A stretch of DNA of 64,000 bases from Tachypleus tridentatus. Lineage: Eukaryota; Arthropoda; Merostomata; Xiphosura; Limulidae. Numbering within the stretch: position 1 is the stretch's first letter; each line of letters opens with the position of its first letter. The notes below the pieces were generated by a model. It saw only the letters and a list, made by a program, of their open reading frames with translations, was not told the origin of the DNA and ran no database searches. The position numbers were made by a program, and so were the translations under genes. The DNA lies in contig NW_027467782.1 of the NCBI RefSeq assembly GCF_004210375.1, forward strand, positions 23,849,276 to 23,913,275. Direction: 5' to 3'. Positions 34,363 through 58,699 of this stretch are shown here, piece after piece.

Positions 34363-34690
34363 GACGTTATGGGCTCAAACACTCACATCTCGCTCTCTAA
34401 TTTCAATTGATTTTAATTATTTTATTGCTCTTGAATTTCTTCATGTGAGACTGACGTGTGGAGGTTAAAACTGACAGTCAGTGTTCCAACCACAATGTGG
34501 TTTCTACGTCATCAGTCAGTGTTTCCAACCACAATGTGGGTTCTACGTCATCAATCACCTTCCAAATCTAGAGTACAGTTTATATATCACATTACAGCCT
34601 GTATCCTGGGGATCCTTTTAATTGGTGCAGCGTCTTTGATTTTGTTTGGATTTATTTTTGTTTATTACAAACATATGTTATACAGTATAT
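34363..34690 (+). repeat. Dispersed repeat R2, copy 2
   Basis: Related to 28630-28910. It contains an internal short duplication of CCAACCACAATGTGG and TCTACGTCATCA at about 34486 and 34528. The 3' third can be read as a hydrophobic segment, ACILGILLIGAASLILFGF, and the other copy has a comparable reading with GILLI. It could be an old exon of a membrane protein amplified with the repeat; no start or splice evidence supports a gene. Confidence 0.55.
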
Positions 34691-34782
34691 TAATTAGAGA
34701 AATGTAAACTAATTTGTTATCGATAAATGCTATACCTATGAAACGTTATAAATGTAAAATCTGCCATGCAAATTAAATGTAG

Positions 34783-34906
34783 AACTGTTTGTTTATTTTT
34801 GTTTAAAGTTAGCTACACAAATACACAATGGGCTATCTGTGGCTGCCCATCACGCTTACCTAAACTTATTTTCTAGCATTATAAGTCCACAGAAATATAG
34901 AAGTGA
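34783..34906 (-). repeat. tRNA-derived SINE, family 3 (minus, degraded)
   Basis: Forward text: GTTAGCTACACAAATACACA, ATGGGCTATCTGTGGCTGCC and CATTATAAGTCCACAGAAAT. Same layout as at 19795, more diverged. Confidence 0.65.
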
Positions 34907-35484
34907 AAGTCATTGAGTCATTGTTTAAGTAACACACATTAACATATACCTACATAAAACATAGTGGAATTTTATATAAGTAAAAAAAAATAACGTATTT
35001 AAAAATGTAAAATATGCCATATATCTGAAGTCTTATTTTATAATGGAGTAAAACTACATTTACTAAAATCATAGTGTGTTGTTGTTTTCAATCATAAGAT
35101 ACTTTTAAAGTGACTCTAAAAACGAAAACTATAAATGTAGTGTTATAATATAAAAAGATCAATGTTGACACTTCGTCTTGTGGTGATGGCATCACTTCTA
35201 GCAGCACGCCCTCTGACATTAGTGACATGATCATATAATGCTGCCTAATAACATCCTCGTTTTTGGAAAAACATGGGTTTTCATATTAAGTATTTGAAAA
35301 AAAAATTGATATTAAATTTGGTTATTACTCCAACTTGTATATTAATTATTTTAATTTTGCATATCACATACATATCCATCACCTAATTAATTTATTAATA
35401 TTTAATTAAATAAAGTATTACTTAGATATTAATTAAGAATTTGCACTTCACCATATATTAATCACATTATTAATTAATCTTTAA
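34907..35484. other. Non-coding
   Basis: AT-rich, with many TTAATTAAT words at 35340-35490. No gene is seen. Confidence 0.4.
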
Positions 35485-36670
35485 TTAATAAATCTCCCCC
35501 AGTAACACCTCAACCACCCTTCCTCCTGGTATTGTCTTTTGGCAGATAGTACATGGCCAGCAAGATCTGCTCGCATCTCTGATGATTCCTGGGCAATGAA
35601 CATAACTAGTGGATCTATCCGCTATCTTCTTTGCTCTTAGGTGTCCTTGCACAGTCAACTCGTGAATTTGTTCCATCAGTTGAGTCCTGTATTCTGTCGT
35701 TTTGATTTGCTGCACTTCCCCAGTATAATTTCTCTGTTTGATTTGGTACAGCAATTCCTTCTAATACTCTGCTCTATAAGTGCTTTACCTCTTTGTCTTC
35801 TGCTCGATTTTTTTCCCATATTTTATCACAAAGATTGTCTAGCGAAAAGTGTTTCTTTTACGCTTCTTTCAATTCCTGCAAACCTACATTCGTGATATCA
35901 CCTTTTGACCTTTGTAAGATCTTCGTGTTATGTTTGCTCTTATTTTCTTGAGCTCTGTTTGTGACTGCCAATGCTTCTTCGTTTATATATATATATGTTT
36001 TTCATACATATAGTCTTTGGTAGGTCTGACATAGCACTCTCTTTTGTTTCTCTATTCTGTTGGTACCATCTCCTTTGTCTTCTGTTAAATTTTCTCCCAG
36101 GTATTGTCCCAAAGTTTCTGCAATGGAAGAACTTTCTTTTATGATTCCTTCATTTCCTACAAACCTACATTCAGGATGTCCTTTTTTCACACTTGTAAGG
36201 TCTTGATGTCTTGCTTGCTCTTCTTTACTTGACCACTAGTGGTGACCACCAATGGTTCATCAATCTTCTTTCGATCTGTTATCTGAGTTTCTACTAGCTG
36301 GTATGTTTTAAACAATTTGGTCAAATATGGATGTTTTATACTGTTGTCTCCAGGTCTACCACATAATATAATGCATTTATCTTTATTTTCTTATGGGACA
36401 TTTTCTCATTGTCCCATCAATAAGTACACACACACACTCACATGTGTAGTTTGCTTCTCATGTGGTCATAATATAGTAGACTGGCTCTCACTACTGCAAA
36501 CAATTTCTTGTAGGCACTTCACTCTTTTGTCCCCAACATATTCTTCACTCACTGGCATGTTGTGATTTGCTGGTACTTCTGAATATCTGTAACATGCTCC
36601 AATCACTATTGACACTGTTGATCCATTTGTTAACTTAAGTTGATTGTTAGTCGTGTACTGATTAACCATA
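35485..36670 (-). pseudogene. Decayed Gypsy (Ty3) LTR retrotransposon, pol remnants
   Basis: On the minus strand, the high-coordinate part (36466-36669) reads VSEEYVGDKRVKCL where a retropepsin begins, but the catalytic D(T/S)G is not intact. The low-coordinate part (35485-35754) reads KQRNYTGEVQQ, HELTVQGHLRAKK and CTICQK, which is the HHCC zinc-binding start of a Gypsy integrase. Protease and integrase lie only about 1 kb apart, so the reverse transcriptase and RNase H were mostly deleted. A stretch of about 190 bp is duplicated inside (35775-35975 and 36050-36262, shared word CAAACCTACATTC). No LTR was recognised. Non-functional. Confidence 0.7.
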
Positions 36671-37393
36671 GAAATGGAACTTCCTTCTCATAGTAAATCT
36701 GGCATCTTTTATTGATTCTCTTTCTTTTGGCAGCAGCATCTATGTTGACAGTCAAACTTTCTAGTTTCTTAACAACACCATCTATAGAAGTTGCTATAGC
36801 AGCTTTATTCTGAGATTTCTGCTGTTCCTTGTTAGTAATGGACTTCCATTCCTTCGCAACGTTACATATTTTATAAATAACATTTCTTTACCCATTTGTC
36901 TGTTAACCCCATGTAACCTTTGGTAGACTCCCGTTTCTAGTCAACTACCAGTTTTTGTTTTAAATAATAATATCTTCAAAATAAGACAAACGTATGTACA
37001 AAAATTATTTACACCATGAAATATCACAGTTGTATCCAAAACTCTAAATAATTAATCTTTATTTTCAAATATCCACTTGGGCTGATTCAATTACTTAAGA
37101 CTATAATTGACAATATAAACTATTTTTCACACAGTACTTACTTTTACTCACAGTACTATTAGTAAATTATTCACTCAGTAAGTACCCCATGGGTTACAAC
37201 AGTTATATCATAACTTTAAAAAATTGTCTACTTCTCATCAAAATTCACAGAGAATGGTTCAATTAATATAGATCCCCCTTTTACAATACAAATTATTATA
37301 TTTATTAAACATTGAAACTAACTTTATCATATCGCCAGATATGGTTAATTATTCTCACACGAGCTAACTTCACGTTTTTTCTCATTGACTAAT
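36671..37393. other. Non-coding
   Basis: Probably more decayed element sequence at its 5' end, then AT-rich sequence. Nothing is supported. Confidence 0.35.
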
Positions 37394-37641
37394 TGTCTGA
37401 GAAAATTCGTAATCTGAGGGTAGCGGGTTTGCATCCCCGTTGCGCCAAACATGCGCCTTTCAGCCGTGGGGCGTTATAATGTGACGGTCAATCCCACTAT
37501 TCATTGGTAAAGAGTAGCCCAAGGGTTGGCGGTGTGTGGTGATGACTAGCTGCCTTCTCTCTCGTCTTACACTACTAAATTAGGGACGGCTAGCACAAAG
37601 CTCCTCGAGGACTATCAACGTGGTAAGCTTGTTTGTTTGTC
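37394..37641 (+). repeat. tRNA-derived SINE, family 1 (5' truncated)
   Basis: Starts inside the tRNA-like head at the anticodon arm (TTCGTAATCTGAGG), has a B box (GGGTTTGCATCCC) and the body GGTCAATCCCACTATTCATT, AGTAGCCCAAGGGTTGGCGG and CTAAATTAGGGACGGCTAGC, and ends near TTGTTTGTTTGT. Confidence 0.88.
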
Positions 37642-38160
37642 ACGTCATACAACTAAAGTTAAATAATCACTATTATTTTTTTAAATCATTAAATATTAAC
37701 TCATCAAATAAATTGAATAGTAACTCTTAAACTAAACAATTTTGTATATCCAAAAAATATTAATTACTGATTTAAAATCATTCTTTCCCCAACTTGTGTG
37801 TCTACAGTGAAGTTATAATTTATAAAGCTTCTGTAATAAATAATCATTTTCTTTGAAACAAACATGGATTTTTAAAGCGATAAAACAGGCAATTTTAAAA
37901 TACTCTATAACTTTTTATTTTCTATTTACATACATTTTATTTTAATTTTTTTATCGATGTGAAGTTTGTGAAAGTCTGGGACAAGAAAACACAAATCGAG
38001 TTCCACTGTCTCTTATTAGTGAAGAAAATCGTCCGATCATAGAAGTTATTCTGTTGTTGTCTTGCATCTGGCTTTCTATTTCGGTTAAACACTAGTCAAA
38101 AAATTCTTGTGGATCTAACAATGTTTCAGGAGCTTACGTTTCTCAATTTGTCTGTCGACT
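37642..38160 (-). other. Presumed 3' UTR and flank of the Ig-domain gene
   Basis: Downstream of the stop codon at 38161-38163 on the minus strand. A polyadenylation-type AATAAA (forward TTTATT) lies at 37914-37919, giving a possible 3' UTR of about 240 nt. Low-complexity AT sequence otherwise. Confidence 0.35.
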
Positions 38161-38478
38161 CTAGTCCTCAGAACCCTCTGACTCTGATGATTTCCTTTCG
38201 TGAAACAAATCTCGCAGTTCTTTGAAGTAAAGAGGTCTCATTGATTTGTATTTCGTAAATTTGTTGTGACGTCTACAATGTGAAGGTACCTTCTTCCTTT
38301 CAGTTAACAGAGTTTCTGATATATATGAGATAATTGGTTTATATTTATTAGGCTGTGTTGTTATAAAATATTTGGCATGTGATCCTTCAAGGCTCGTGAT
38401 AATGTTTCTTATTTTACTTGATGCATTACTATTTTGAATGTCCTTCCTATGGGTGAAAACATTCGCCTTTGGTTCTTT
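38161..38478 (-). CDS. Ig-domain gene exon 6: C-terminal cytoplasmic tail
   Basis: Acceptor TTATTTTTAG, phase 0, 105 codons and TAG. It contains SKIRNIITSLEGSHAKYFIT, then a strongly basic middle (ERKKVPSHCRRHNKFTKYK), FKELRDLFHERK and an acidic Ser-rich end. No catalytic domain is recognised. The length without stops in AT-rich DNA is good evidence of coding. Confidence 0.83.
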   Translation of the reverse strand, partial: KEPKANVFTHRKDIQNSNASSKIRNIITSLEGSHAKYFITTQPNKYKPIISYISETLLTERKKVPSHCRRHNKFTKYKSMRPLYFKELRDLFHERKSSESEGSED

Positions 38479-41400
38479 CTAAAAATAACAAGAATCAGAA
38501 TAGGTTGATGTTAGTTATCATTATATCGAAATTACCTCTTGGAAATTAATACAATGAAACTACCGATAACTGGGCTATATCAGTTTAGTGGATATCGATT
38601 CAAATACGTTTTCGAACAACACTTTTATTGAAATATCCAAATTTTGAGCAAACTGATTGACTCTATAAATTGATTTCTAATAAGTAAAAAAGGGAAGGGA
38701 ATGTTTATCTTGTGCATGCCGAAATATTTTCCACTTTACTTCGGGGAAAATCTCTGTAGAAAGTATCATATTTCTCTAGTACTAAACAGAACAAAATGTA
38801 AACAATTACTAACAAGCGTTATTAGAAATTTGAGAATTTCAAAATAATCAAACTAAAAAAGAAATTGAAATAAAAAAAACGTTGGTACCAACAACTATAC
38901 TTTTAAGAATGATAAATTGCGTGATGTATATTTTAATTTAGTTGCTGCAATTATCGAGAATTTCACTCAATGTCGTTTTTGTTGGTTTTTTTTATCAGAA
39001 AACTTCAAAACGGACTATCTGTGTCTGCTCACCAAGAGCATTAATACCAGACTTTTAGAGTTATAAGTGTTCGGTCGTAATTCTGGGCTCCACCAGATGT
39101 CCTTAATCTATGGGTGCCTTTGTATTTAAAATTCGAATATTTTAATATTTGTTTGGAAGCAGCTTAACACTCCTACGAAATGACGTTTCTAGTCCTGATT
39201 TCTCCAAGCTCGTTCCCCTGGCTGTGGTTTCGCTAGATATTAGAGAGGGACAGTGGGAATCTCGTTAATCCATTCATTAATGGATTTAAATGGCAATTTC
39301 ATTTAAATACAAAATTATTAGCCTAATATTAATAACCTTTCAAGTTGCTCTGGGGCCTATTAGGCCCCACTTTTCATAGGAGTGTTAACATCGAGATGGC
39401 GCTGCGAAATTTATCAATATCGATTTGAACTAAAGCGCAAAAAAGAATACAAACACGACAATAATGATGCTTCCAGAGAATTTCTACTGTTTAAAATTTT
39501 GGCATGACGAAAGGAGTGTTTGAACATCAGATAAGATACAATAAAGTTCTACAGTTATCCAAGCAAAGAAAATTTGGCTAATGCCGGTTTGTTAAACAGG
39601 AAAAGAAAATAAGCAAAGATAAATGTCCCGGCATAGCCAGGTGGTTAAGGCGCTCGGCTCGTAATCCGAGGTTCGCGAGTTCAAATACCCGTCACACCGA
39701 ACATACTCGCCCTTTTAGCCGTGGAAGCATTATAATGTGACGGTCAATCCCACTATTCGTTGGCAAAAGAATAGCTCAAGAGTTGGTGGTGGGTGGTGAT
39801 GACTAGCTGCCTTCCCTCTAGTCTTACACAACTAAATTAGCAGTTGTAGTATATGAAGGATGGAAGTCCTCACATTATACATCATACGTATATATGTCTC
39901 TCTACTACTAAATGGAATGAGTGAGAGCCAACTTTACGAGGTAATGACTCATAAACAGAGTCATGCAGTACAAATCTATAGAATAAACATTTATTAAAGG
40001 TTTGGAGACGGCTTAAATGGTAATGAAGAAAATATTATTATATACTTGCGCAAGTACTAGTCCTCTGGACGGAATTTACGTAAATTCATAATTAATGAAA
40101 AGTTATCTAACGACATGAATAATTGTCTCCCTCATATGTGACCAGATCAATGAAAACCATGAGATAAAATACTGATAAAACGCCTTCCTTTCCCCGTAGC
40201 GGGCTTAGAACCATAATTTGAAACAGCTTCTATCCAAGTGGAACGGTTTTAAAATGGTCATATTAGAAGCATCTTTCATATATCTTCCCAAATGTTAATA
40301 CAGTAGAAAATATGTAATTTTTACAATTTTGTTGTTCATACATTTCACTTTATACTTTGAGTACATAGATCAACAAGAATATCAGGTTATACTTTTGTTG
40401 CTAAGCGACATGGCATAAAGTTGTTGTTGTATACCTATACCAAGTTAAGATTCATCCGTAACTGTGTCAACAACTGTAAAAACACATGACTCATAAACAG
40501 AGTCAATAGAGTACAACAATTTCGAAAATGTTTTGAGATGGCTGCAATGATAAAGAAGAAACCTGTATTATATGTATATATCTACACACAACGTCTATCA
40601 AGTATCCATTTAAACCGACTACAAATGTCCTTCTAAAAATCGATACCATTAAATTGAAACGTTTCTTATAAGGTGGAAGATTAGAGTGTAAAGTTTATAG
40701 CCTTAATACATTATATTTATAACGGTGTCTAAACTTCACGCAGAACACCAGCATGAAAATGTATAGAAAGTAAGTAAATATATGTGACTGAAGGTATATT
40801 ACATTCTTGTTATGTTCGTCTATTTGTGCTCTACCCACCACAGCTATCGATAGCCGGTTTCTAGCGTTGTAAGTCCCAGACACTCGGTATGAAATGTGAT
40901 GACATTTCCCGTTATCACAATACTTACTTTAGGAAGATGAAAATTCTGGACTTTTTTGGCCCTCTTCTCTTTTACACTTTTACATTTTCTCTTATCGTCT
41001 CTATTAACAGACTGGTCTTCATCTTTTTGTGGTACAAGTGAATATTTAATTTTTTTTCTATCATCTTTATTTGTATGGTCTTCTGTGTTAGCTGATTTTA
41101 CTGTTTTACATCTACAACAATTGCACTTCCAAATAATGACACTACAAAAGAAAAGCGCTAATAAATAACATGGATGATTTAATTTGACTCTTATTTGTAC
41201 ATCAGTGTTATGTCAATTAAAATGGAATATAATTATAATCTAGAAATAATAATATTTAACAACGACAGCCACAGGGACGTTCTCTCCCAGTGGAACGTCA
41301 GTAAGTATATGAACATATAACACTAAAATAGGCGGGTTCAGTTCCCCACGGTGGACATTGCAAGTTGACCCCTGCTGCATCTCTTTAAAATAAAGTTAAC

Positions 41401-44400
41401 AAATGTAAAAAGGAATAAAATGTTATAGCTCAAGAGGGATAATTGAATAATTATTATACTCGCTGATAAATTTCAATTTTAAGACCATATTCAAATAAAC
41501 TGAAAATCATTAATTAGTTAAAGAACTTTTTTGAATGAAAATGCCTTTTATATTTATCTCAAGTACTCGAATTGTAATAATTTAGGTTACCCATATTTTA
41601 CACGTTTCAATTTGAAGTATTTCTACTGACACGCACAGTACCTTATTGTATTTACATATAAAAACAGGTTGAACAATAACATACTTACAAGGAATGTTTT
41701 CATCAGAAGAACTTGTAATATTGTAAAACGTGATCCACAATTTAAGCTTTAAGTGAATCTTCACACTTAAAATACACTTTATTGTAAACTGATGATGCTA
41801 ATTTCCCCTTATATATTTCTTTTTAATGCAAGCGTTTGTATCCTTTTGATTATTTATCATTCTAATTAAAAGAAAGTAACTAATATTTTTTTATTTCTCA
41901 GTCCCTTTAAATTCATTATTAAGTATATACACACATGGTTCAACTATTAATAACATAGAAATTATATTAAGATCTATTCAACAAAACATAAAAAAATACT
42001 GTTTTGTTCTTACCTTAAAAAAATTAACAAAAGTGGTATTCCTACTGCAGCAGTTACCAATGGAATCGTATGTTCTGACATGGATGGTGCTGAAATGGAA
42101 AAATACAAGTTAAAAAGAAAGTTAGTCAAGTGCAATTTGTTTTTGTTATATGATAGTATTGGAGGAGGCTACGTTTCATTTGGTATACTTACAGTGAAAA
42201 TAACAAGATAACCACAGCGTTCTGAGTTACTGGAATCGAAGAAGTTCCACTCTTTATTCAAACACGTATAAGTTTAATGCACATGGATAAAACAGTACAG
42301 GTAAAGAAGTGTGAAGTATCACTTTAGATTTACTTTCTTCCTTGATAATCCAAGTAAAGGTATTTACTTATCATATCTTATGACAACCAAATACACTGAC
42401 TGTGTTTTCATATCAAATCAGGATGATCATTTGATGCATCACGTGACTGATCACCATTACAGCAGATATATATATTTGTAACAAGACAAAAGGCAAAAGT
42501 AACAAGTTCTCAGACTTCCAAGGATGTATGATTGTCGACACTGACTTACTAGTAATTTGTAAACTGAATACTGTTTATATGTTTCACTATTCAAAGAAAT
42601 CTGTAATTAGTGTTTAAATGAACTACAAACGAAAGAGAATATATTGGAAAACTATCGGTAACAATTCAAAGGGAAAGTACATGGACGGTCTTTTTGTTGT
42701 AAACTAATGTAAAACTCTGCTCTAGTCAACCAGTTTTTATAAAATAGTCAAGGTTTAAATAATACAACAATACTAGGAGGAGGAAAATACTTATGGCATA
42801 CAATTACTGGTCCAAAAAACTTACTTCAGACAACAGAAAAGCTCAAACTGTGAACAGTGAATTAGTGGGAATGATAGACGTGGTTTGGTGAATCATGTTT
42901 TACCTAAGTTACTATGAGTGGTGAAATGGTAAGATATTTATTATTTAGAATAGAAAATAATGTCCACAATGCACTGGAATATTATAAGAGATCGGGTCTT
43001 CACACATTACTACATTTTTTACCTTCATGAATAAGGGATTGAAGAAATTTAATGGGAAGAAAGAACAACACGCGTCAACACAAACATCGTCACAGTAATA
43101 TTTTTCCATCACGACATTTTGTCACCAACCTTTCCACACATATTATCTCACGTTAAAGGTACGTTTTACGTAATCTTATATGTAGCATAACTTACTTTTC
43201 CTTGGAGAAGGAACGTATGTTTCTTCCTCCGTTCCTGGTTGACTTGGATCTAAGAAAAAAGCTTGAAATGTTTACAATGTTAACTTTGACAATTAAAAAT
43301 AAAATAATGGATGAAGTATATAATAACTAATTTACTGCTTAGTTTGTTCGAAACAGTTTTTCCTTTTTTCGATTTATTTAAAAATTAAAATTCACAAATA
43401 CTGATCACACATGTAAACGCTTTGAAGGAAAGCACAACTTACAACACAGGTTATGTCTCAGTGTGAGTCCTTCAGGACATTGGTAGTTTTCACTAGGTTG
43501 TACGCATGCTAAAATAAAGTATAAGATGGTTCGTAGTATTGTTGACATAAGAAATAATATTTTTGCACTGGTTATTTGTAATTTAGCACAACACTACATC
43601 ATGGGCTATCTATGCTCTGCCCATCACGGATATCGAAACCCGGTTTCTAACATTGGAAGCACGCAGACATTTTGCTGGGCCACTTGGGGAATTTTTGACC
43701 TGATATGACACTTTAGGCTCATAACAAATTATTAACTACTTTTCTTCGTGAAAGCTCATACACTGGAAATCCTGTAAGGTTTAAACAAAATCTAACAAAT
43801 ATAGTTGATGGCTTATCTTGTTCTTTATCTATTGTATCGTAAGTCACAGGAGGTTTCAAATCAATGTATTTTCATAATTAATAATAAATAAGGATTTACA
43901 ATGCTAAAGTTAAGGGTTCGATTTCCCCTCGGTTGGTACAGCGGATATCCCTTTGTAGCTTTCCTATATGAAAAACGCAGATTTTGGTAATTAAAGGCCC
44001 GGCATGGCCAGATGTGTTAAGGCATTCGACGTGTAATCTGAGGGTCGCAGGTTCGAATCCCCATCACACCAAACATGTTCGCCCTTTCAGCCGTGGGGGG
44101 CATTATAACGTGACGGTCAATCCCACTATTCCTTGGTAAAAGAGTAGCCCAAGAGTTGGCGGTGAGTGGTGATGACTAGCTGCTTTCCCTCTAGTCTTAC
44201 ACCCAGATCAGAATTAAAGATATGCTCAGTAACAGATACAGTTAATCAAATAAGCTCTTCAAACTTTCTTATTTCAAATGATAAGAATGTATTGTTTCAT
44301 CGCTTGGATGTGAAAAGTGGCTAAACAATGTCTCTGAATACCAGAACTTACTGTGTGTTTGTAACAAAAGAAACATTTTTCTGCTATAACACTGTAGCAT

Positions 44401-45564
44401 TTTGTAATTTCAATATTTTCACAGACGATTAAAGAAATCATTCAACACTTTTGATTTTTTAAAATTATTTGTTCTATATTATGACTTGTAAAGAAAACAA
44501 CAAAACCTTTCTAATTTCTAACATAAGGTTATCTCGTTTTCTGACTTCACGGAATGTCTAATTTCATTAATTGTGTTATGCTATTGATTAAATTTATTCA
44601 TATCTATGTATGTATTTAGTTATTGCATATGATAAAATAGGCCCGGCATGGCCAAGCGCGTAAGGCGTGCGACTCGTAAGCCCGCGTCGCGCTAAAACAT
44701 GCTCGCCGTCCCAGCCGTGGGAGCGTTATAATGTTACGGTCAATCCCACTATTCGTTGGTAAAAGAGTAGCCCAAGAGTTGGCGGTGGGTGGTGATGACT
44801 AGCTGCCTTCCCTCTAGTCTTACACTGCTAAATTAGGGACGGCTAGCACAGATAGCCCTCGAGTAGCTTTGTGCGAAATTCCAAAACAAACAAACAATAT
44901 GATAATAATAAATAAAAAATTATTTCGTAATGATAAATTTATATCTGCAGACAAGTTTGATTTTCAACATTTTAACACCTCAGGCTTGACGCGGAAACAA
45001 TGGCGGTGAGCTGTATGTTGGTAGTTGGAAAGGTGATTTCATGGATTTTGGAAAATTTATGTACAATCATTAAATATAAATCGAACATATAACACTTTAC
45101 GTAAATTGTAGTAAAAAATGGATGGAATCCGATTCATAATTTAAAGTTTTTTTTTAACTTCTAAACACTACCAAAATCGATTCTTATAAGCATTTACCTT
45201 CCAAGAAATGAGTGATGAAAATTGGTTTGTGTGCTTTTATCTCCCAGTTTTTTGAGTATTCAATAACACACTTATACACACCGGTATCAGAAAAATCAAA
45301 TTTATAAATCATTAAATCACCCGTGGCTTTGTTTACTCGAATTTTATCATCGTCTGTTGCTATTCCACCGTAGGGGCCAAACCAATAATACTGGAAAACA
45401 TCAATGGTATAAGTTTTGATCCCATAGCTGTCAGGGACACACGGAATCACCTGTGGGGCGCCAAGTATAATACTTTGAGGTTTAACCTTTATGTGTCCAG
45501 GCATTGCTATTATTACAGCATATAATGCTATAAAAAGCAATGTTTTAAAAAAGAACTTCACCAT
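38161..45564 (-). CDS. Ig-domain single-pass membrane protein, 6 exons, 364 aa
   Basis: Joining 45564-45198, 43508-43443, 43249-43196, 42089-42014, 41141-40928 and 38478-38161 gives 1095 nt, open to a single TAG. All five introns are GT-AG with phases 1,1,1,2,0. Seen in the protein: signal peptide (about 1-20, LLFIALYAVIIA core); one V-type Ig domain with C42, W61 and DTGVYKC ending at C99; a short stalk with several cysteines (about 123-145); a Pro/Glu-rich linker; a transmembrane helix (about 171-192); a juxtamembrane cluster KCNCCRCK; and a basic tail of about 165 residues ending in SESEGSED. Likely a plasma-membrane receptor or adhesion protein. The Ig domain recalls zona pellucida-binding proteins (WFGP and TGDLM before the DxGxYxC motif), but ZPBPs are secreted sperm proteins without this tail. 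Ligand and function are unknown. An extra exon in phase 1 cannot be excluded. Confidence 0.85.
38995..39110 (-). repeat. SINE family 3 remnant (minus)
   Basis: Forward text: CGGACTATCTGTGTCTGCTC, ACCAAGAGCA, then AGAGTTATAAGTGTTCGG. It matches the middle of the copies at 19795 and 43570. Confidence 0.5.
39627..39842 (+). repeat. tRNA-derived SINE, family 1 (3' truncated)
   Basis: Best-preserved head: CCCGGCATAGCCAGGTGGTT, AAGGCGCTCGGCTCGTAATC, and the B box GAGTTCAAATACCC. The anticodon position reads CGT (Thr-like, tentative). The body continues to CTTACACAACTAAATTAGCAG and stops before the tail. Confidence 0.9.
40815..40900 (-). repeat. SINE family 3 remnant (minus)
   Basis: Forward text: TATTTGTGCTCTACCCACCA, CAGCTATCGATAGCCGGTTT, CTAGCGTTGTAAGTCCCAGA. 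Located just downstream of exon 5 of the Ig-domain gene. Confidence 0.6.
40928..41141 (-). CDS. Ig-domain gene exon 5: membrane exit and basic tail
   Basis: Acceptor TTTTGTAG, 71 codons after one split base, donor GTAAGT (phase 0). It begins SVIIWKCNCCRCK, completing the transmembrane helix and giving four cysteines next to the membrane that could be palmitoylated (inference). The rest is Lys/Asp-rich and low in complexity, with KRKCKSVKEKRAKK. Confidence 0.85.
41142..42013. other. Intron 4 of the Ig-domain gene
   Basis: A B-box-like word (GCGGGTTCAGTTCCCC near 41334) may be a SINE fragment. No other feature is seen. Confidence 0.45.
42014..42089 (-). CDS. Ig-domain gene exon 4: transmembrane helix
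   Basis: Acceptor CATTTCAG, 76 nt, phase 1 in and phase 2 out, donor GTAAGA. It encodes SEHTIPLVTAAVGIPLLLIF, a hydrophobic stretch that joins exon 5 to make about 22 membrane residues followed by basic residues, as expected for type I topology. Confidence 0.88.
42090..43195. other. Intron 3 of the Ig-domain gene
   Basis: No repeat or exon is supported. Confidence 0.4.
43196..43249 (-). CDS. Ig-domain gene exon 3: stalk linker
   Basis: 54 nt, phase 1/1, acceptor TTTTTTCTTAG, donor GTAAGT. It encodes PSQPGTEEETYVPSPRK, a Pro/Glu-rich flexible linker. A symmetrical exon of this kind could be skipped without changing frame. Confidence 0.82.
43443..43508 (-). CDS. Ig-domain gene exon 2: cysteine-bearing stalk
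   Basis: 66 nt, phase 1/1, acceptor TTTATTTTAG, donor GTAAGT. It encodes CVQPSENYQCPEGLTLRHNL followed by Cys. The C...CPEG...C pattern resembles a fragment of a small disulphide module such as those of the GCC2/GCC3 type; this is inference. Confidence 0.82.
43570..43700 (-). repeat. tRNA-derived SINE, family 3 (minus)
   Basis: Forward text: GCACAACACTACATCATGGG, CTATCTATGCTCTGCCCATC, GATATCGAAACCCGGTTTCT, TTTTGCTGGGCCACTTGGGG. The reverse-strand T-arm-like GGGTTTCGATATCC is well kept. Lies in intron 1 of the Ig-domain gene; the 60-codon plus-strand ORF here is repeat-derived. Confidence 0.8.
43893..43982 (+). repeat. SINE family 2 fragment
   Basis: AATGCTAAAGTTAAGGGTTC and GATTTCCCCTCGGTTGG (B-box region), then TTTGTAGCTTTCC. 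Similar to 33955-34060. Confidence 0.6.
43997..44205 (+). repeat. tRNA-derived SINE, family 1 (3' truncated)
   Basis: GCCCGGCATGGCCAGATGTG, GACGTGTAATCTGAGGGTCG, the perfect B box GGTTCGAATCC, the body CAATCCCACTATTCCTTGG, ending at CTCTAGTCTTACACCC. In intron 1 of the Ig-domain gene. Confidence 0.9.
44641..44898 (+). repeat. tRNA-derived SINE, family 1, full-length tail
   Basis: GCCCGGCATGGCCAAGCGCG; the B-box half of the tRNA-like head is deleted or scrambled (GTAAGCCCGCGTCGCGC). The body is intact, and the complete tail is GAGTAGCTTTGTGCGAAATT then CCAAAACAAACAAACAA. This copy best shows the 3' end of the family. Confidence 0.92.
45198..45564 (-). CDS. Ig-domain gene exon 1: signal peptide and V-type Ig domain
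   Basis: Starts at the ATG at 45562-45564, which is directly followed by a classic signal sequence (MVKFFFKTLLFIALYAVIIA). 122 codons, then G and donor GTAAAT, phase 1. Ig hallmarks are C42, W61 in YYWFGP, and DFSDTGVYKC. The whole Ig fold sits in one exon with a phase 1 exit, as is usual for Ig V exons. Confidence 0.88.
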
Positions 45565-45702
45565 CTCTATATCTTAAAGTTTGCTCGCAGTAGTAACTTG
45601 AACGTTTTCCAAAATGTCTCCTAATTATCTGTGTTGCTAAGATACTGTTTCATTGTTAATATTATAAATATTGTTGCTTACAATATTTACGTAAGAACTA
45701 CA

Positions 45703-46214
45703 AACAATATATCATAAAAGTTACGGAGTTCCGGATTAAACGCTAAAAGCTGACAAAGTACAGAAACTAAAACGTGTGAAATTTATGATGATGCTACAGA
45801 AACCACAACTCCATTTTTACACAGCTTTGAGTTGAATTTAAAATAAATAAATTCAAAAACGTGTGAAAAAAACGTCCAGTGTTTACGTTATTTTTATCAC
45901 AAAATAAGATATTGTTGTTTCACATCATGCTTAGAGGCAACGAAGAAACACCACAACAATATATCACAAAAGTTACGGAGTTCCGGAATAAATACTAAAA
46001 GCTGATAAAAGTTACGGAGTTACGGATTAAACGCTAAAAGCTGACAAAGTACAGAAACTAAAAGGTGTGAAATTTATGATGAGGCTACAGAAACCACAGT
46101 TCCATTTTTAAAAAGCTTTGATTTGAATTTAAAATATACAAATTGAAATATGTGTGAAAAAACATCTAATGTTTACGTTATTTTATTACAAAATAAGACA
46201 TTGTTGTTTCACAA
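45703..46214. repeat. Direct duplication just upstream of the Ig-domain gene
   Basis: 45703-45923 and 45955-46213 share AATATATCATAAAAGTTACG, GAGTTCCGGATTAAACGC, TAAAAGCTGACAAAGTACAG, GTGTGAAATTTATGATGA and GATATTGTTGTTTCACA. The second copy has an extra partial repeat of its first 50 bp (45968-46010). It begins about 140 bp upstream of the start codon, so it lies in the likely promoter region. Confidence 0.9.
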
Positions 46215-49200
46215 TAATACTTGCTAAATAATCACAATTATTGTTGTGAAAATAGTTCAAACAACTCGCCTGGCAGGTAAATTACATATACGGAATTTAA
46301 AAAGTTTCTATTCTTCCCTTAAGTTTCCCCAATTTGAGTTAAAATATTAAAAAATAAAAGCATCATAAACAAACTGTTTACATACTGATTGGAACAGAAT
46401 TACAAGAAAAAGAAATTTATTTATTTTCTCCCATGAAGATACCTAGGGGGCTGAATATAAAAAATCGTGGAGTTAATTACATCACAGGCCTAATATCAAT
46501 GTCTTCTCACAAGTATAACTAGTTGTGATCACACTCTATCAGTTTAGAAAACGTCTTCACCGTAAGATTCGTTGCTGTGACAAGCTGCTTATATAAATAT
46601 TGTGCTTGGTCGTCGGCAATGGATAGGACAAAGTATAGTTGATATAATAATGTACATGTTTGTTTTTCAAAAATTCGTGAGTGCTTACGAAGCACATGAG
46701 GTTGATGTAGCACAGAGTGCCGGTTTTGAAACTGTGGCTGGAGGTACAAGCAACCCTGTTAATGGAATTATCTGCAATTATTCAATGAGAGACTGGTCGT
46801 TCTGTGAGTCAGTCACTTTCTCTTGAAGTTATTCACCTCATGAACAATCTGAACCTGTTCATTCCGAGAAAGATTTTTATAGCCTTTTCGAACCACAGGA
46901 TTTTCTCATGTTTCCCTGTACACCTCCTGCAGAGTCAGCTCGGTCTAATATTGCGTATTCAGGTATGATTTCTCAGGTATGTGATGTTTTATCCCTTTTT
47001 ATGATTTCCTACAATCCTCATCCTTTTTTGTTGTATGATAGCTCTCAGTTCTTCTTTACCATATTTAGTTTTCCCACTTTCTTTGGATATTAGGGTTCAT
47101 ACAAAGCATTTTACTTCATAATTGGTTGAGAGTTCCAGCATGTCTTGCTTCCTATGTGCTGTGGACAGTTTGTTTGACGAACCAACAAGTAGCCTATCCG
47201 TTGTAAGACTCACAGGTGTTGGAATCTATTTTGCCAACTTGGGAGTACCCCCCTGACTTCCAGTGCTTTTAACCCATGCCTCTGTATTATCCTTACTTTT
47301 GTGGTATTTATCTACCATACATTTACTTTCAGGTACTCTGTACGAAAGTCCTGAGGTATTTGAGGAACAGCCTCTCCTTTGTTACTTCTAAGATAACTCA
47401 TTTTTCATTCTCTACTCTCACCTTGCATACATAATTTTTCTGTTGTTGAAACATACTGGGTCAAAATGCAGCCTTCTGTCAGATTTATTTGCTGCCCACT
47501 TAGGAAATCATGTGTAGCTCTGTTTCTTAGTATATTTTCAAACGTATTCCAGACTCTTTGGAATTGCATGCTGGGAACACCTGCATCAACACTCTACCCT
47601 TTCATTTTTGGTAGCACATTTGCCACAGTTGGAATCAAGACAAGCCCCTGTTCCTGTTTCCCATCCTAGTGCTCCCCAGCTTTTACCTGTTCCTCTTTCC
47701 AGGTGTTTTTTTCAGTGTAGATCATCATAATATCAACAGTACCAGTTGATAACTGGATGGGAGCTCAGTTGTGTGACTTTCTTCCCCTTGGCTGTGTTTC
47801 ACCACAGATTGGTGGATTATTTGGACATGTCCTATGCTTCCTTTACCTTCCTCTTTTTATCACAGATATCCATTTCTTTCCTTCCTCAGGATCCCATTAA
47901 CAGCCAGCTTCTGTTGGAGGTAGTTCAAGACCTTCTGTCCAACAGAACATTGAATCTGGAAATCATCTCTATCACAGTTTCTATTCCAGCTGTTTGTTGT
48001 TGTCATTAAAACTGAAGACTAGCTATATGTCATAGTCTTTCAATCAGTTTCTCAGTCTCCTTTTTTTGTTTTATAATATAGAGTAAAAGCAAAAAACATA
48101 AGTTTTTGCACATTGTAGTGAATATGTTTGACTTCCTCCTTCAATTATACTTTATCTGTATTGTGGAAGCAAGGCTGAATTATTTATTAGGCACAGTGCC
48201 TAGGGCCTATGAAAACTATAGGTCCATGAAAATTTTCCTTAAAAGTTAATTTTTGGTTTAACTTATATGGCTGGTAGGGCCTACAAACAGTAGGTGCCTA
48301 CGTCCTACAATCGTCTTGATACAGCTTGGTGGAAGAACTTGGGATTGTTATGGTTCTTTCCCATCAACTGTCTTTTGTGTAGCTTATTCTGAAGATGTTA
48401 TTTGTCTTAGGTTGGTTCTGGTCATTTTCTCTCTCATACACGTTTTTTCAATCCAGGTCATCAGGTTTTCTAAGTTGATATACCATTTTGAATTCTTAAC
48501 ATACGCTCTCTTCAGGAGTCAGGGGTTTGATATCCCTTCTGGTCTCATTAATTTTAGGTGAAGATGGTATGATCCTCATTCTACACCTACCCTCTATCTG
48601 TGTCAGTTTCCAGCAGCACAGATTTTGGATGTAGTTGTCAAGTACAGTCCATCATGCCCTAGCCACTTTGTGTCTCGGGACACTTCCATTTTCCCCAATA
48701 CTAATTAGATTTACTTCTCAGTTTTTGTCTACCAGAATATACAACACATTTCCCAGATTGGTGAAGAGTATGGCTGGTTTAGAAGTAGTGTAGTCTCCCA
48801 CATCATATCTACATATCTAATTCTTTAGACTCAAGGTGTGTCCTTGTACTCTTTCAGAGGGTGCTTCTTTTCTTCCCTTGCACCAATTCAGTGTGTGATT
48901 CTATCTGATTATATAAGCACAGCTAATGTACCATATTAGAAGTTAGTTTTTCTATACATAAAATGTACTTCCTCTCCACTCAAAATGAGTGATTCAATTC
49001 TCCACTAAAACTCAAAACAGTAATTTGATAGAACTGAATAGAGGAAGTCGCACGTATAATGAGTGTATAGCACTTTCCTTTGTGGAGGATTATCCATGGT
49101 AATTTGCATGAGAGACATTAAAATGAGTCATTTCCAAAGGAAGGGAGGAAAAAGGCTTGTGGCATGTTTTACTTTCTTTTTTTTTTCCACATAGAGGGCA

Positions 49201-49314
49201 GCACTAAATGAGACTAGTTATATGAAATACATTTTCAGTATAGGAAACATAACTTTCACTGTTACCCTGCTTAACATCTTATTTTGTTGAAAATCACCTA
49301 TATTTTCATGAAAA
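46215..49314. repeat. Degenerate dispersed repeat region (copy C)
   Basis: Pyrimidine-rich and broken in all frames. Blocks near 48770-48800 (TTAGAAGTAGTGTAGTCTCC) and 49152-49250 (GGCTTGTGGCATG, AGAGGGCAGCACTAAA, ACATTTTCAGTATAGGAAAC) match regions A and B. The plus-strand ORFs at 46602, 47466, 47746 and 48316 are not supported as genes. A palindromic-looking GGCACAGTGCCTAGGGCCTA lies near 48190. Confidence 0.45.
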
Positions 49315-49528
49315 TTGGGATCATCTAGAAATTTTTCCCTCTCTCTAGTATGTTTTCTTGGCCTCCAAATTAACAAGGCGCCTTATATCCAATTTTATAT
49401 TGTAAGCCTCGATATGGATATGTCATCCAGTTGTAAAAGAGACCCAAGGCATCTCTCAGCCCTAACTTGTTAATTTGGAGGCCAAAAAAACATCCTGGAC
49501 AGAGGGAAAAATTTCTAGAAGATCCCAA
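49315..49528. mobile_element. Foldback MITE with about 60-bp inverted ends
   Basis: The left arm begins TTGGGATCATCTAGAAATTT and continues through GGCCTCCAAATTAACAAG. The right arm is its near-perfect reverse complement, ending AAATTTCTAGAAGATCCCAA. The arms enclose about 90 bp. With 214 bp in total and no coding capacity, this is a miniature inverted-repeat element. Target-site duplication is unclear in the A-rich flanks. The minus-strand ORF across it is a by-product. Confidence 0.85.
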
Positions 49529-50837
49529 AAGATTAAAAGAGTCAGTGAGTTTAGTACAAAGGTAGATAAAAAAGATTGAAGTAGGCGATGCAACTTTGAA
49601 CATTTTACAGTTTTAAGTCAGCTTTATCATACTAATAAGATATAGTGTATAATGTAAGACAGTAGTGAAAAGGAAAGGATGGTTTTCTGTGGACAAATAT
49701 TTAGTCCCATCTCTTTAAGTAAGGTGTACTTTCTCTGAATTCAGCTTGACAGTGAGGATGAATCACATATATTAACCTGGTTGTGCTTGTGTTATTCAGT
49801 TGTTATAGTAGTGAGGTACAATGTGTGTAATGTAAGTTCTGTGGTTCCTGGGACACAAACAGCACAGTATAAAGATAGACTTTAATACAATAACAGTTTC
49901 CTTACTTGACTATTTTCCATATATTGCAACAAAGGCATTTCTGTTGAATTAGACAATGACTGAAGATGGAAATTGGTCATTTAGCAAACACATTATGCTA
50001 TGATCTTTTTATGGATGATTTATGGACAAAATTGAATGTGCTTTTGTTGTTATTTTTTAAAGCTTTTAACATCTGGGGAAATAAGGTTAACACAGTATAT
50101 GCAAATCAAGAAATTTGAAGAGTTTGGAAAATTTGTATCTTATGGACCATCACACTTTAATGTTATTACCTTAAAATTGAAACTGTTTATTTAAACCACA
50201 TCTGAAACATAAAACCATTTTTATCAAAATCTAATTTCAAAGATACCCAAGAATAATTAACTTTTTAAAGTTTTAGGTCAATTAGGAATTGTATTTTTGT
50301 TAATGAAATTTAGTTTTCTGTGAAGAGATTTATTTTTGTTGTTGATTAATTAATGAAATTCTTATTGTAGTTTTGTTCTTATTTATTTTTCAGTTGTGTA
50401 AATAATCAGAATACTTAATAGTCTTACACAGTATTATTTGTTTAAGGGTTCATTTATCTTTTAAGAACAACTTTCAAGTTTCCTGCTTCCCTTGGAACTA
50501 TTTCATTATAAATCATGTTCAATTTTGATGGCCATAATAATGCATTATTGCCTGAAAATACTTCTTTCATTGCAGTAAGTTTCTACAAAATGAGGTCAAT
50601 CTTATTCCACACATTTTGATAAACTTTTCACACAATCTCCACTGCATTTGGATGTTGGCTTTCTAGACCATGTTTAAGCAGATCAAAGACAAAACCAAAA
50701 CAGCATTTTATGCTTCAATGAAACTGAATTGTGTTGGCAATCCAAATATTTTGTGTTAAGGCCTTCAAAACATATGCAGATAGTAATTATTCACTAATGG
50801 ATATAAACTAAACTGAGTTCTTTTTTGTCTTCAATAG
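49529..50837. other. Non-coding, intron-like
   Basis: No repeat or exon is supported before the acceptor at 50836-50837. Confidence 0.4.
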
Positions 50838-50910
50838 TGTTTGCTAATTCAGAACCTGTTAGAGGGTTTGAAGAAGGTGCACTCAGATGTGCTTTGCTGA
50901 TCTTAGGCAG
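50838..50910 (+). CDS. Unidentified exon, phase 1 in, phase 2 out
   Basis: Acceptor TTTTGTCTTCAATAG, TG completing a split codon, 23 codons, then AG and donor GTTAGT. The peptide is FANSEPVRGFEEGALRCAL plus LILG and joins in frame with the terminal exon at 60982 through a split Arg codon. Alpha-helical character is likely. I do not recognise the protein. Confidence 0.7.
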
Positions 50911-53900
50911 GTTAGTAAACCTTTACAAAACTCTACTATTTAAGTTCATATTAAAAGATATTACAAGTAATGTAAACATTGCTTTTGGACTAAATACATT
51001 TTATGTGGTTGCTGTAGAATAGTCATTAATATTGTATATGTATGTAACATAGGCATACATTATGTATATAGATATGTAATTAACAGTTACATTATGGAAG
51101 ACATTAAACCTTGAAGAATGATATATGCTCACAGGAAGAAAAGTATGCAACTCTCGTGAAATGCCTTTCAAAAATGAAACTAGTTAATGAAATTATTTCC
51201 TTAAAACTTGATAACAAACTTTCATTAAAGTAAGTAGTTTCAACAAAAGTTTTATTTTGTAAATATTTTTTGGATTTTTCTAATAAAAATTCATTATTTA
51301 ATGTAGTTATTTACACTTGGACTCTGAGTAGTTCACATGCAAAGTAATAATACTTTTTACCTTACCGTTTTTACATTTCATTTGCATAACCTCTAGAACC
51401 TCACAAATGAACATCAGTTGCTGTTTTTTAAGGTAAATATTTGTACTTTATTTTCTCTTTTATGCACCGTATTACTAACTCTATTTGTCATCATCAACAG
51501 AGAGTGCAGGGAAATGATTTTAAAATTAACAAAAATGTGTACATACCTTTTACATTTTTATAGAAATTTACTAGTATAGTCATCTTTTTCACATATTTGT
51601 AATTTAACGTCTTTATCTTTTCATTTATAGTTTATTTTTAACTCTCCTTTAAAATTCTTTGTCTATTTATTCTGATATGTTAACTGATACCAATAGGCCT
51701 TTTATGAAGAAGTTATTTTGAGAAATTCCCCCACATAGATGTGTTGCCAAAACAGGATGGCTGTTATAGATACCATCTTGTTTATAAAGCTTTCACAATC
51801 CATGTAACAAGTTAAGCTTATAAAAACCATTAAATCACTCAAATAGGATTTTTAAAACATAAATTATACACGGTCAACTAAAATATAAAAATTAGATTTA
51901 ATTACAGTTCAACTGTCTCTAACTATAGCATTTTGAGGTAACAAACCACTGTAAGTGCTGTAGATAATAGTACTGCAGGCTGTTACTTTGACTTCGGTAC
52001 AAAAACTGTACACCAATTTCATAATAACTGTTGGTGGAGTGAGTGTACACTGAGCTCTTTATAACAGCTTTGTACATTTGTATTAACTAATTACTTGTAC
52101 ATCATAAATTTGTTTCCAAAGTATAGAAGATTGGCATAACACCCATTAAAGGCTGTAAAATCTATTTCTCTTTTGCAATGGATTAAGTTCTAAGACTGCA
52201 TATATCGTATGTCTCAAAAGGACATGTGAAAATACATTGGCATCTACACAGTTGTATGCATTGCGAGCTTATGTGTTTACAGTCAGTTTCTGTTAAATTG
52301 TAGATTTTTTTTATATAACTTGGATCATGTGACAAGCAAACTATTTATTTTAAATGTTTCTGTTGTAACAAAGAATTAGAACTTGGATAACATAAACATT
52401 AAATTATATACTATAATGTTAATTTCATTCACATGCATGGATTGTAAAGATGTTTAATTAAATTTTGCACATAATTCAGTAATTTGCATATAAATTAATT
52501 TTAAAATGCTGCTGTTCTGATCAGATAAACAGATATGACTTTCAGTGTTATTTTGTTTATCAACACTACTCATCATTGAGTTTCTGATGTGAGTACTTAA
52601 GACTATGTCATTTAAATGCTTCTGTGTGCATTTTAATGTGGAATTTTTTGCCTGTTGGCTTCAGTCAAGAACACTTTTTGTGTATCTGGGAACCAAATAT
52701 ATACACGAGATTTACATTCATTGTCAGTGACATCCGTCAATGTATTTATGGCATTTGTACTTGTGATTATAAATGTCACATATATGTTTGTAATTGATAC
52801 ATTTTTTGTTGACTTTGCTCTCTTGAACTTCGAGTAATCCAGTTACATGTCTTATCACAGCTGTATGTGAGAGTGACTTGTTTTGTCACGTAATTCTTGG
52901 AATTGTGATTTCTTCATGAAGTTATTTGCTTTTATTCTCTTTTTTTTATATTTTTCTGTTGACTAAATCACTGGACCTTTCTACAGGCTTTAAAAGAATT
53001 TCAAAGTAATTGTTAGTCAGATTGTTTACTTCTGTTATAATTATTTTGGTGAACTTTGTATTTGGTCATTCTAATTTGCTTGAGAAACATCTCTAGAATA
53101 CTTTAGAATCCTCTTTTCTTAGTCTTGCCTGAAACATCAGTCTAGTCTAGTTATCTGAATGGTAAATGGTGAACAAGTTTTTGTATTTGTCTAGTTCATC
53201 CCATAGTTCTGATGCTCATGAACTGTCATGGTTAGTAACCTGTATGGTCACTTCAGTCTGATTGTTAATTGAGAACTTTTATTAACTACTAGATACCAGT
53301 TATTCATTACTTTTATCCTGTGTTTTGACTAATAATCTGCTTCCATATTCTTGGAAATCTCAACTATTTATTTAGTGGTCGTGGCTGAAAATCAATTATT
53401 AGTCTTTTTGGTACAGAGACTGGTTTATATATATATACAGTAGTTTTAATATTCAGTGACCATCATGGAGGTCTGTTTTCTCTTTTTTTAACTTAAGGGA
53501 GTTTCAAGTTTGTATTATGTGAATTTTGTTGCATATTGCTTTTTCTTTGTATTAGAGGATGTGTGTCTCAGGTTAATAGGCTGGCTTTTATTGGTCACTA
53601 GCCATTGTTAGGGAAGGTTGTATAAAGTTTTACTTGCACAGGTCTCATGCTTGTCTAGGTACAAGGAAGCACTGTGCTGGTATATGGAATCCTCTCTTAC
53701 TTCACAAAAGAAATATTGTTTTTATAAACACCTAAAGTTAAAAAAGGACAAAAACAGTTACATTATTTAACTAGTGTTTCAAGCAACTGCCCTTCATTAG
53801 GTTTGATATTATTTAAGGTTACTTACTTTTCTCAAGTTTCAACATAACTGTTCATTGTTATTTGTGAATCTTTTCCACTTTTAGAAAGAAATTAAGGATG

Positions 53901-54039
53901 TTTATTGGATAGCATTGTTAAATTCTATAACAGTATGACATCATTCTTAGTCCTAGAATTAATGACCTTTGTGCATCTCTTAAAAAAATTTCAAAACAAC
54001 TTTGTAATTTTTTTTTATTAATAACCTATATTTTAATTC
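50911..54039. other. Intron-like, no feature seen
   Basis: Part of the intron of about 10 kb between the last two exons of the unidentified plus-strand gene. CpG-poor and AT-rich. The ORF at 52655 (+) is unsupported. Confidence 0.4.
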
Positions 54040-54250
54040 ATTTTTCTGTTTCCTATATATTAATATCACCTATATTTTAATTCATTTTTCTATTTCCCAT
54101 ATATTAGTATTGTTTCCTATATATTAATATCACCTATATTTTAATTCATTTTTCTATTTCCCATATATTAGTATTGTTTCCTATATATTAATATCGCCTA
54201 TATTTTAATTCATTTTTCTATTTCCCATATATTAGTATTGTTTCCTATAT
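54040..54250. repeat. 64-bp tandem array, about 3 units
   Basis: The unit contains CCTATATTTTAATTCATTTT, then TCTATTTCCCATATATTAGT and ATTGTTTCCTATATATTAAT. The first unit is shortened. Confidence 0.9.
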
Positions 54251-55699
54251 ATTTCTTTACATTATCATTTTCTGTAATACCCATTCCTTTTTATTTTTCT
54301 ATTCTGTGAAAACTGTTTTAACATTTTTTTAACTGCTGTCACTGCCATCTTTCATGTAAAGCACACATTTTTTTATGTACATCTAAACATGACAGGAATG
54401 TCTTCTGTTATTATTGACATAAATGACATCAACATTTGTACTTGTAATGTGCCCTACTAATCATTGCTCTATATTATCCTAAAAAAAGAACAGTCAATCT
54501 AGTTAAAATATTTTATGTCACCTTTATTGGGTTATATGTTGTACTGATAAAGATTTGAGCACTCATTCAGTTTTACATGCACATAAATAGTCAAAGGATT
54601 GGTAGGTTAGTTTGGCCTGCTTGAAATGAATAGTGTATTTTGTTCAGTTTAAATTCTTGCTCTTGCTCAGTATGTTAGTTATTGATATTTCTTTTCCAAA
54701 AGTTTAGTTATGCATTTGAAAGCCACGCTGTGTGACATTGAATAGATTCAAAATAGTTATTGGTATCTGAATAGACCTATTTGCCTAAAAGTTCCACCAG
54801 TCTATAGAAATACAGAGATAAAAGTTACAGTTTGGTAAATCACCTTTTGAGTATATGTATAAAGATTGGCTCTGCTTACTGTTAATAGGAAGATTTTGAA
54901 TTTTTCATGAAACATTAAGAACAAGTTATGAAGTACTTTATAAAAATGATAAACGTAGCATGAGATAGACTTAAAAATTGAAATAACTTTATTTTAACTA
55001 AACATTTTAGTAAACTGGAAACATTGAAGATCTACATGTTGCATTCTTTGGAAATAAGAAGCTTTATGGCTGTCAGGTATTTACAGTGTTAAAGAGTATA
55101 ATGTGTGTGGTAGAAGGAACACTCTAAATGTCCCTCTGGTGTTAATATATATAATAAACAGTTTGTGTCATGCTTCTTTGTTTTAATTGTAATGGTCAAC
55201 AATTTATATCATTGTTTTGTAACAAAACTACCAATTGATATTGTTAGGTCAACTATGGTATTTATGTTGTGAATGTTTAATATACATTTTGGTTTGTTTT
55301 TTATTCTTGTTAACTTTGGTGATAGAACAAAACAATTTAATTCAGAAATTATTTTGATTTATAATTGATATTTTGTCTTTATTGAGCTTAGAGTAAGTTA
55401 TTGCACAGTACATTTTTAAGCTTAATTATAAAACAAATAATACCCTAGGCTCACTTATTGCACCACGATAAGTTAAATAGCATTTTATTTATATTTTTTT
55501 CAGTTGTTTATTAACATTGAGGTATAGACAAAAGAAAGATAAAAGTTACCAAGGGTTTCAATGGAGTAGTGTTTCAACTAAGCCTTTGTTACAATAATGT
55601 TTTACACCCAATGCTTGTATTTAGGCCATTAAATACACCTTCTGTTACTAATGTTAAGATCAGATGATAGCTAGTTGTGTCTAAGTGTGAATGTAAAGT
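54251..55699. other. Intron-like, no feature seen
   Basis: AT-rich and stop-rich. Nothing is supported. Confidence 0.4.
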
Positions 55700-55968
55700 A
55701 CATAATTCCCTCTAGTCTTACACTGTTAAATTAGGGATAGCTAGCTGACTTCCGTCTAGTCTTACACTGTTAAATTAGGGATAGCTAGCTGACTTCCCTC
55801 CAGTCTTACACTGTTAAATTAGGGATAGCTAGCTGACTTCCGTCTAGTCTTACACTGTTAAATTAGGGATAGCTAGCTGACTTCCGTCTAGTTTTACACT
55901 GTTAAATTAGGGATGGCTAGTGCAGATAGCCCTCGTGCATGAAATTCAAAAACAAACAAATAAACATA
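55700..55968 (+). repeat. SINE family 1 3' part with internal 44-bp amplification
   Basis: The SINE segment TCTAGTCTTACACTGTTAAA followed by TTAGGGATAGCTAGCTGAC occurs five times head to tail. The last unit runs on into the normal end (GGCTAGTGCAGATAGCCCTC, then AAACAAACAAATAAA). The tRNA-like head is absent. A minisatellite has therefore grown from within a SINE copy. Confidence 0.88.
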
Positions 55969-58639: not shown

Positions 58640-58699
58640 TGCTACAAGAATCAACAGTAATCTTCCGTCATCACAGGATTCCACTGTCTTTCTTGATGT

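Follow-up and report, generated by a model that had tools for sequence, protein, structure and literature searches.

The window, a 64,000-nucleotide stretch of Tachypleus tridentatus DNA, carries a minus-strand gene that we rebuilt from the raw sequence as six exons (Table 1), with GT-AG ends at all five introns and intron phases of 1, 1, 1, 2 and 0. The joined frame runs for 364 codons plus a TAG stop that ends at 38161, as the first-pass annotation had described for its six minus-strand exons with canonical splice sites. Open reading frames at least as long as exon 1 occurred by chance in 44 of 100 windows simulated with matching dinucleotide composition, so the length of exon 1 is unremarkable by itself and recurrence in other copies is the real test against chance; both the structure and its junctions recur in paralogues of the window gene. 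The order of signal peptide, Ig domain, cysteine stalk, helix, cysteine cluster and basic tail was likewise recovered, except that the signal peptide and the Ig domain share exon 1. The idea that the Ig domain occupies a phase-1 exon of its own therefore fails, as no pair of phase-1 introns flanks it.

Table 1. Features of the gene and of the duplicated segment around it, in window coordinates.
Feature	Position	Strand	Description
Exon 1	45198..45564	-	Start codon, signal peptide (~residues 1-20), entire Ig (Cys42-Trp61-Cys99); phase-1 end
Exon 2	43443..43508	-	Cysteine stalk (Cys124, 133, 144); phase 1 to 1
Exon 3	43196..43249	-	Linker; phase 1 to 1
Exon 4	42014..42089	-	Bulk of predicted membrane helix; phase 1 to 2
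Exon 5	40928..41141	-	Helix end, cysteine cluster CNCCRC and basic tail
Exon 6	38161..38478	-	Basic tail, acidic end, stop codon
Candidate polyadenylation signals (n=2)	37914..37946	-	Motif scan: ATTAAA from 37946, AATAAA from 37919
Shared stretch	34474..62654		Shared in pieces with the C8 and C9 copies, ~28 kb, ~91-97%; its ends in the window lie in short tandem repeats

Hydropathy analysis showed a signal peptide and one membrane helix at about residues 170-192, and the product is predicted to be a type-I membrane protein whose architecture is that of a surface recognition molecule with a single Ig. Besides the cysteines of the Ig domain (42 and 99) and stalk, four lie in the cluster beside the helix (194, 196, 197 and 199) and two in the tail (241 and 327). 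The tail comprises 171 residues, of which 42 are basic and 22 acidic, and contained no Pfam domain above cut-off. Only ~20 residues separate the signal peptide from the first Ig cysteine, and single-sequence structure prediction of the Ig exon gave a mean pLDDT of 34.3. The earlier view of a cell-surface protein thus stands, judged from sequence, for a single-pass surface Ig protein, but the gene is not a lone one, as ~100 copies are dispersed through the genome.

These copies were counted in an assembly of 2,167,478,450 bases in 205 contigs. Searching with exon 1 gave 189 candidates, 150 of which were scored, and 80 rows were kept by hand (at least 77% identity over at least 104 of 123 residues). 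There are thus at least 80 long exon-1 copies, 77-100% identical; 66 are free of stops, and 53 of those also cover the query in full. For exon 6, which encodes the tail, 150 of 190 candidates were scored, and 109 of the resulting 143 rows were kept by hand (at least 76% identity over at least 88 of 105 residues), giving at least 109 long copies, 103 of them without a stop. A same-strand tail lies 4-16 kb downstream of 68 of the 80 exon-1 copies, and exon 1 and tail are both open in 54. For the remaining 41 of 109 tails, no exon 1 was listed at that distance (37 of them are open by hand count), and at least five of these do have an exon 1 that is nearer, shorter or more decayed. At one orphan tail, at 50.53 Mb on contig C8, nothing of the gene could be recognised in 9.4 kb beyond exon 6 and the end of intron 5.

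Exon-1 copies are spread over 12 contigs, with 24 of the 80 on contig C19, where their density reaches 0.34 per Mb vs 0.027 elsewhere; clusters also occur on C7, C11, C12 and C8, among others. C19 was considered as a possible gene-poor or sex chromosome, and a kinase control placed 2 of 125 rows on it where ~4 were expected by length. The gene almost certainly belongs to a multigene family, with roughly 100 recent copies scattered over chromosomes.

Seven copies, including that in the window, were read along their length. All seven have exons 1-5 and six of them also have exon 6, and the splice dinucleotides of the six other copies were AG and GT apart from one GC donor at exon 4 of the C12 copy. 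The whole frame was open in three copies (the window, 114.88 Mb on C9 and 15.43 Mb on C19), three others were frame-shifted, and one was without exon 6. All six other copies share at least ~15 kb with the window, in pieces and with non-coding DNA included, indicating duplication of entire segments. How far homology to the window extends varies from copy to copy, and the C8 and C9 copies match each other for at least ~39 kb, past the ends of their homology to the window, the match reaching the limit of the compared sequence on one side. Positions -17,090 and +11,090 were considered as mobile-element ends and rejected, since both are tandem repeats and the C8/C9 homology runs beyond them. A non-coding piece 5 kb upstream had 101 candidates, and the 40 of them that were scored matched at 97-100%; a piece 14 kb upstream is part of a more widespread repeat, with 748 candidates of which 40 were scored, and an integrase zinc-binding domain was found in one of eight segment ORFs scanned. 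The pattern fits spread by segmental duplication, possibly aided by mobile DNA.

The sole Pfam family over cut-off for the window protein was Sp38 (PF07354), the N-terminal Ig domain of zona-pellucida-binding protein (ZPBP), with 27.1 bits against a cut-off of 23.1 across residues 51-104. An HMM search with exon 1 alone, a check suggested in the first-pass annotation, scored 29.4 bits against the gathering score of 23.1. Sp38 also matched 26 of 27 aligned Ig exons at E<=1e-3, and at least 36 matches over cut-off were found across the genome (150 of 175 candidates scored). The exception among the 27 may be locus B, described below (Sp38 E 0.018). As a control, three fragments of contactins, 36-47 residues long, were scanned and drew matches to Ig_3, I-set and other families but not to Sp38. 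The Sp38 similarity nevertheless appears modest, and because contactins lead the solved-structure profile matches, with Dscam also among these, the domain is best described as an Ig of the general adhesion type that leans towards ZPBP. We consider it probable that the domain is ZPBP-type. The label "V-type" could not be kept, as V-set reached 17.7 bits against a cut-off of 26 and I-set likewise fell under its own.

ZPBP is known as a vertebrate sperm protein, soluble and low-copy, and is not known to have a membrane anchor. The window protein shares with ZPBP1 and ZPBP2 an Ig domain over the Sp38 gathering score, and the related locus C shares with them an Ig of the Sp38 type with a cysteine-rich exon after it, whereas the membrane helix, the 171-residue tail, the ~100 copies and the undetected C-terminal Sp38 domain set the window protein apart. 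The first-pass annotation had proposed that the Ig recalls ZPBP while anchor and tail do not, and both halves of that comparison are borne out. The C-terminal EGF-like Sp38 domain (PF20626) was unlisted for the window protein at E<=10; a genome search for it gave 0 matches from 39 candidates, which says nothing on its presence since controls were equally silent. With the C-terminal domain not found and a predicted membrane helix present, membership of ZPBP is not established.

Two more distant loci, B (L029) and C (L050), have Ig exons with a signal-like start that are 30% and 20% identical to the window exon 1. In both, the Ig is shared with the window gene, and they differ from it in an Ephrin_rec_like exon downstream on the same strand, 3.2 kb away in locus B (39.6 bits) and further away in locus C (49.1 bits), with joining by splicing putative in each. 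The locus B Ig exon, which on our reading of the sequence ends at a phase-1 border, scored 15.4 bits against Sp38, under the 23.1 cut-off, and the locus C Ig scored 31.2 bits, over it, with I-set and V-set also over theirs. A search with the locus B Ig exon retained by hand 33 of 150 scored rows (at least 84% identity over at least 81 of 132 residues), giving at least 33 long relatives including itself, of which 29 have no stop and 21 are full-length without a stop by hand count. Six of the 33 B copies have a window-family copy no more than 200 kb away, compared to a random expectation of 1.0%. Contig C19 is dense in both families, and 2 of the 10 B copies there lie within that distance.

Divergence between window-family copies is centred on the Ig exon. 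Compared to the copy at 15.43 Mb on C19, the window differs by 7.7% in exon 1 vs 2.4-4.4% in introns and upstream sequence, and compared to the copy at 110.83 Mb on C12 by 10.9% vs 4.7-6.3%. For wider comparison, 28 of 30 exon-1 sequences were used (27 of them distinct), leaving out the window itself (L002) and one with a one-base gap (L007). Divergence in 150-base steps peaked on exon 1, and among the 28 copies the block from -50 to +306 averaged 0.091 vs 0.030 over the opening 101 bases of intron 1. Permuting sites between block and intron gave 1 of 10,000, for a block delimited after seeing the bins, sites that are non-independent and a short intron sample. The four closest copies showed exon 1 no more diverged than introns.

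Within the block, divergence was 0.110 at third codon positions and 0.073 at first and second positions (28 copies). It also extended 5' of the start codon, being 0.125 in the last 50 bases and 0.068 in the preceding 50, and stayed above the intron level throughout the 100 bases compared. Since the elevated block takes in the 50 bases before the start codon, and since third positions rise as well, protein selection alone is an inadequate explanation, and the pattern points to age or exchange. An excess at third positions over the intron is what is expected if old Ig types were kept while their flanks were homogenised.

Coding constraint is visible in the family, with pN/pS of about 0.5. Across the 27 distinct exon-1 sequences pN/pS was 0.54 for exon 1, 0.50 for the Ig and 0.87 for the signal peptide, and for the whole frame of the three open genes it was 0.50-0.57. 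Tail pairs with synonymous change gave 0.36-0.64, the orphan tail included. Tails of three close copies, two of them broken upstream, had 2-4 amino-acid changes and 0 synonymous ones, suggesting that recent copies may be relaxed. Inside the Ig, pN/pS was 0.97 in loops and 0.32 in the remaining core, with loop limits set after seeing the alignment. Pervasive positive selection was considered and rejected, as pN/pS is below 1 and approaches 1 only in these post hoc loops. Open frames were also set aside as proof of selection: 66 of 80 exon-1 copies are open where a neutral expectation, calculated with an overstated path length and copies taken as independent, is 36.8, but tails without a listed exon 1 are open as well (37 of 41). 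As open frames are weak evidence, selection was judged by pN/pS.

The reading that we tentatively prefer, as a possibility rather than a probability, is a sperm or germline recognition role. The protein would act in germline recognition, probably on the sperm surface or in the acrosome, with its Ig binding either an egg-coat partner or a second membrane protein of sperm. The cysteines next to the helix may be lipidated, the basic tail may tether the protein to membrane or cytoskeleton, and copy number would provide dosage along with Ig surfaces that differ slightly from one another. Families that are both amplified and dispersed occur often among testis genes, and large, diverse Ig families are equally typical of immunity. 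PMC7900825 describes the sperm-fusion proteins IZUMO1, SPACA6 and SPE-45 as carrying one Ig, crossing the membrane once and having charged regions. The window protein resembles them, in a works-like sense only, in its one Ig, one predicted membrane pass and charged tail, but unlike IZUMO1 and SPACA6 it leaves too little space ahead of the Ig for a four-helix domain. Izumo-Ig was unlisted for the window protein in Pfam at E<=10, and at locus C scored 15.7 bits at best, under its cut-off of 26.7.

The main rivals to this germline reading draw on the same copies. One is that the gene is a passenger in a multiplying large repeat or selfish segment, with most copies dying and their number functionless. 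The many kilobases of non-coding DNA common to copies, the abundant pieces 5 and 14 kb upstream, the four damaged frames among seven long copies and the tail fragment that was read without its gene all agree with this; constraint at pN/pS ~0.5 argues against it, as may homology limits that vary by copy, unlike those of a fixed-end unit, and we consider it unlikely, though a serious contender. Unlikely too, and ranked after it, is an immune receptor family, in which many Ig surfaces on haemocytes would detect microbes or non-self, with the basic tail recruiting signalling proteins. Some ~100 clustered copies over 12 contigs, the raised divergence of the Ig-exon block and the loop pN/pS, for loops chosen post hoc, would suit such a family, as would the expanded recognition families, 117 Dscams among them, noted in a Tachypleus tridentatus genome paper (PMC7011531). 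Its difficulties are that the top Pfam match is the Ig domain of a sperm protein, that the tail lacks a Pfam domain over cut-off (a result on Pfam domains, not short signalling motifs), and that overall pN/pS is below 1.

A broader account, which we hold doubtful, would be a ~100-member membrane Ig repertoire of horseshoe crabs in which old Ig-exon types persist while flanks are homogenised by recent duplication or gene conversion, serving as a ZPBP-type gamete or non-self recognition system concentrated on one chromosome. Derivation from the chelicerate shortened Dscam (sDscam) family is very improbable. The chelicerate host, the many Ig variants and the Dscam profiles among the solved-structure matches favour it, and both are large Ig families, but sDscams are described in parts of PMC4835542 as having fibronectin III domains and tandem 5' Ig cassettes ahead of common exons. 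Fibronectin III was unlisted for the window protein in Pfam at E<=10, tblastn found no second Ig exon and hence no 5' cassette array in the window, and 68 of the 80 Ig exons have a tail of their own.

Coagulogen exons in the assembly bear out the chelicerate host proposed in the first-pass annotation, the coagulogen family not being known outside horseshoe crabs. These exons lie on C11 (best E 1.5e-25); 14 control genomes had none, a weak control in that the 11 named ones are bacteria or archaea. The suggestion that the protein is undescribed fits the main texts of two horseshoe crab genome papers (PMC7210998 and PMC7011531), in which "immunoglobulin" and "zona pellucida" are absent. Some of the 117 Dscams reported in PMC7011531 could be genes of this kind. 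The papers listed when ZPBP was looked for in invertebrates or arthropods concerned mouse and, in PMC12070448, chordate sperm proteomes.

What makes the locus most interesting is its amplified family and the way divergence is distributed about the Ig exon. If the germline reading is true, a membrane-anchored, ~100-copy relative of the ZPBP Ig in an externally fertilising arthropod would link fertilisation proteins of vertebrates and invertebrates. Alternatively, the family would represent a repertoire of Ig receptors in an animal that is used for its innate immunity.

Seven copies of the tail exon (exon 6 of the window gene) were found clustered on contig C8 of the assembly at 50.53-50.71 Mb, with exon 1 absent among the matches listed. 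When one copy from this cluster was read, the gene was recognisable at its tail end only, and the frame was still open. At locus B (L029), a related locus with an Ig exon and a downstream Ephrin_rec_like exon, a downstream open frame on the gene strand (~8455-8913) terminated in a piece resembling the locus's own Ig domain, and Ig-like pieces similar to this one were present at several further places. Elsewhere in the assembly, several coagulogen-like stretches were seen on C7 at 19.2-20.5 Mb, in addition to the principal coagulogen match, which lies on C11.

Two tandem arrays were observed within the window. The first, at 16269-18086, consists of 46 copies of a 39-base unit and contains long stop-free stretches in its reading frame. 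The second, at 62530-64000, is built from a 122-base unit and continues past the window edge, and the sequence preceding one of its units is different in the three related copies compared there, on C8, C19 and C9. A run of 500 consecutive N at 33044-33543 may be an assembly gap or sequence that was withheld.

Candidate remnants of mobile elements were also present. A fragment of an Integrase_H2C2 zinc-binding domain (35488-35760; Pfam, 35.2 bits) lies inside the duplicated segment common in pieces to the C8 and C9 copies. Fragments at 12356-13056 were judged transposase-like by eye, and Pfam returned no matches to them at E<=0.05. Around the window gene, a dispersed repeat with four window copies between 37435 and 44836 looks like a tRNA-type SINE.

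Copies of the dispersed repeat around the window gene
Feature	Candidate type	Window positions
Dispersed repeat	tRNA-type SINE-like (candidate)	37435-37609
Dispersed repeat	tRNA-type SINE-like (candidate)	39619-39840
Dispersed repeat	tRNA-type SINE-like (candidate)	44073-44213
Dispersed repeat	tRNA-type SINE-like (candidate)	44696-44836
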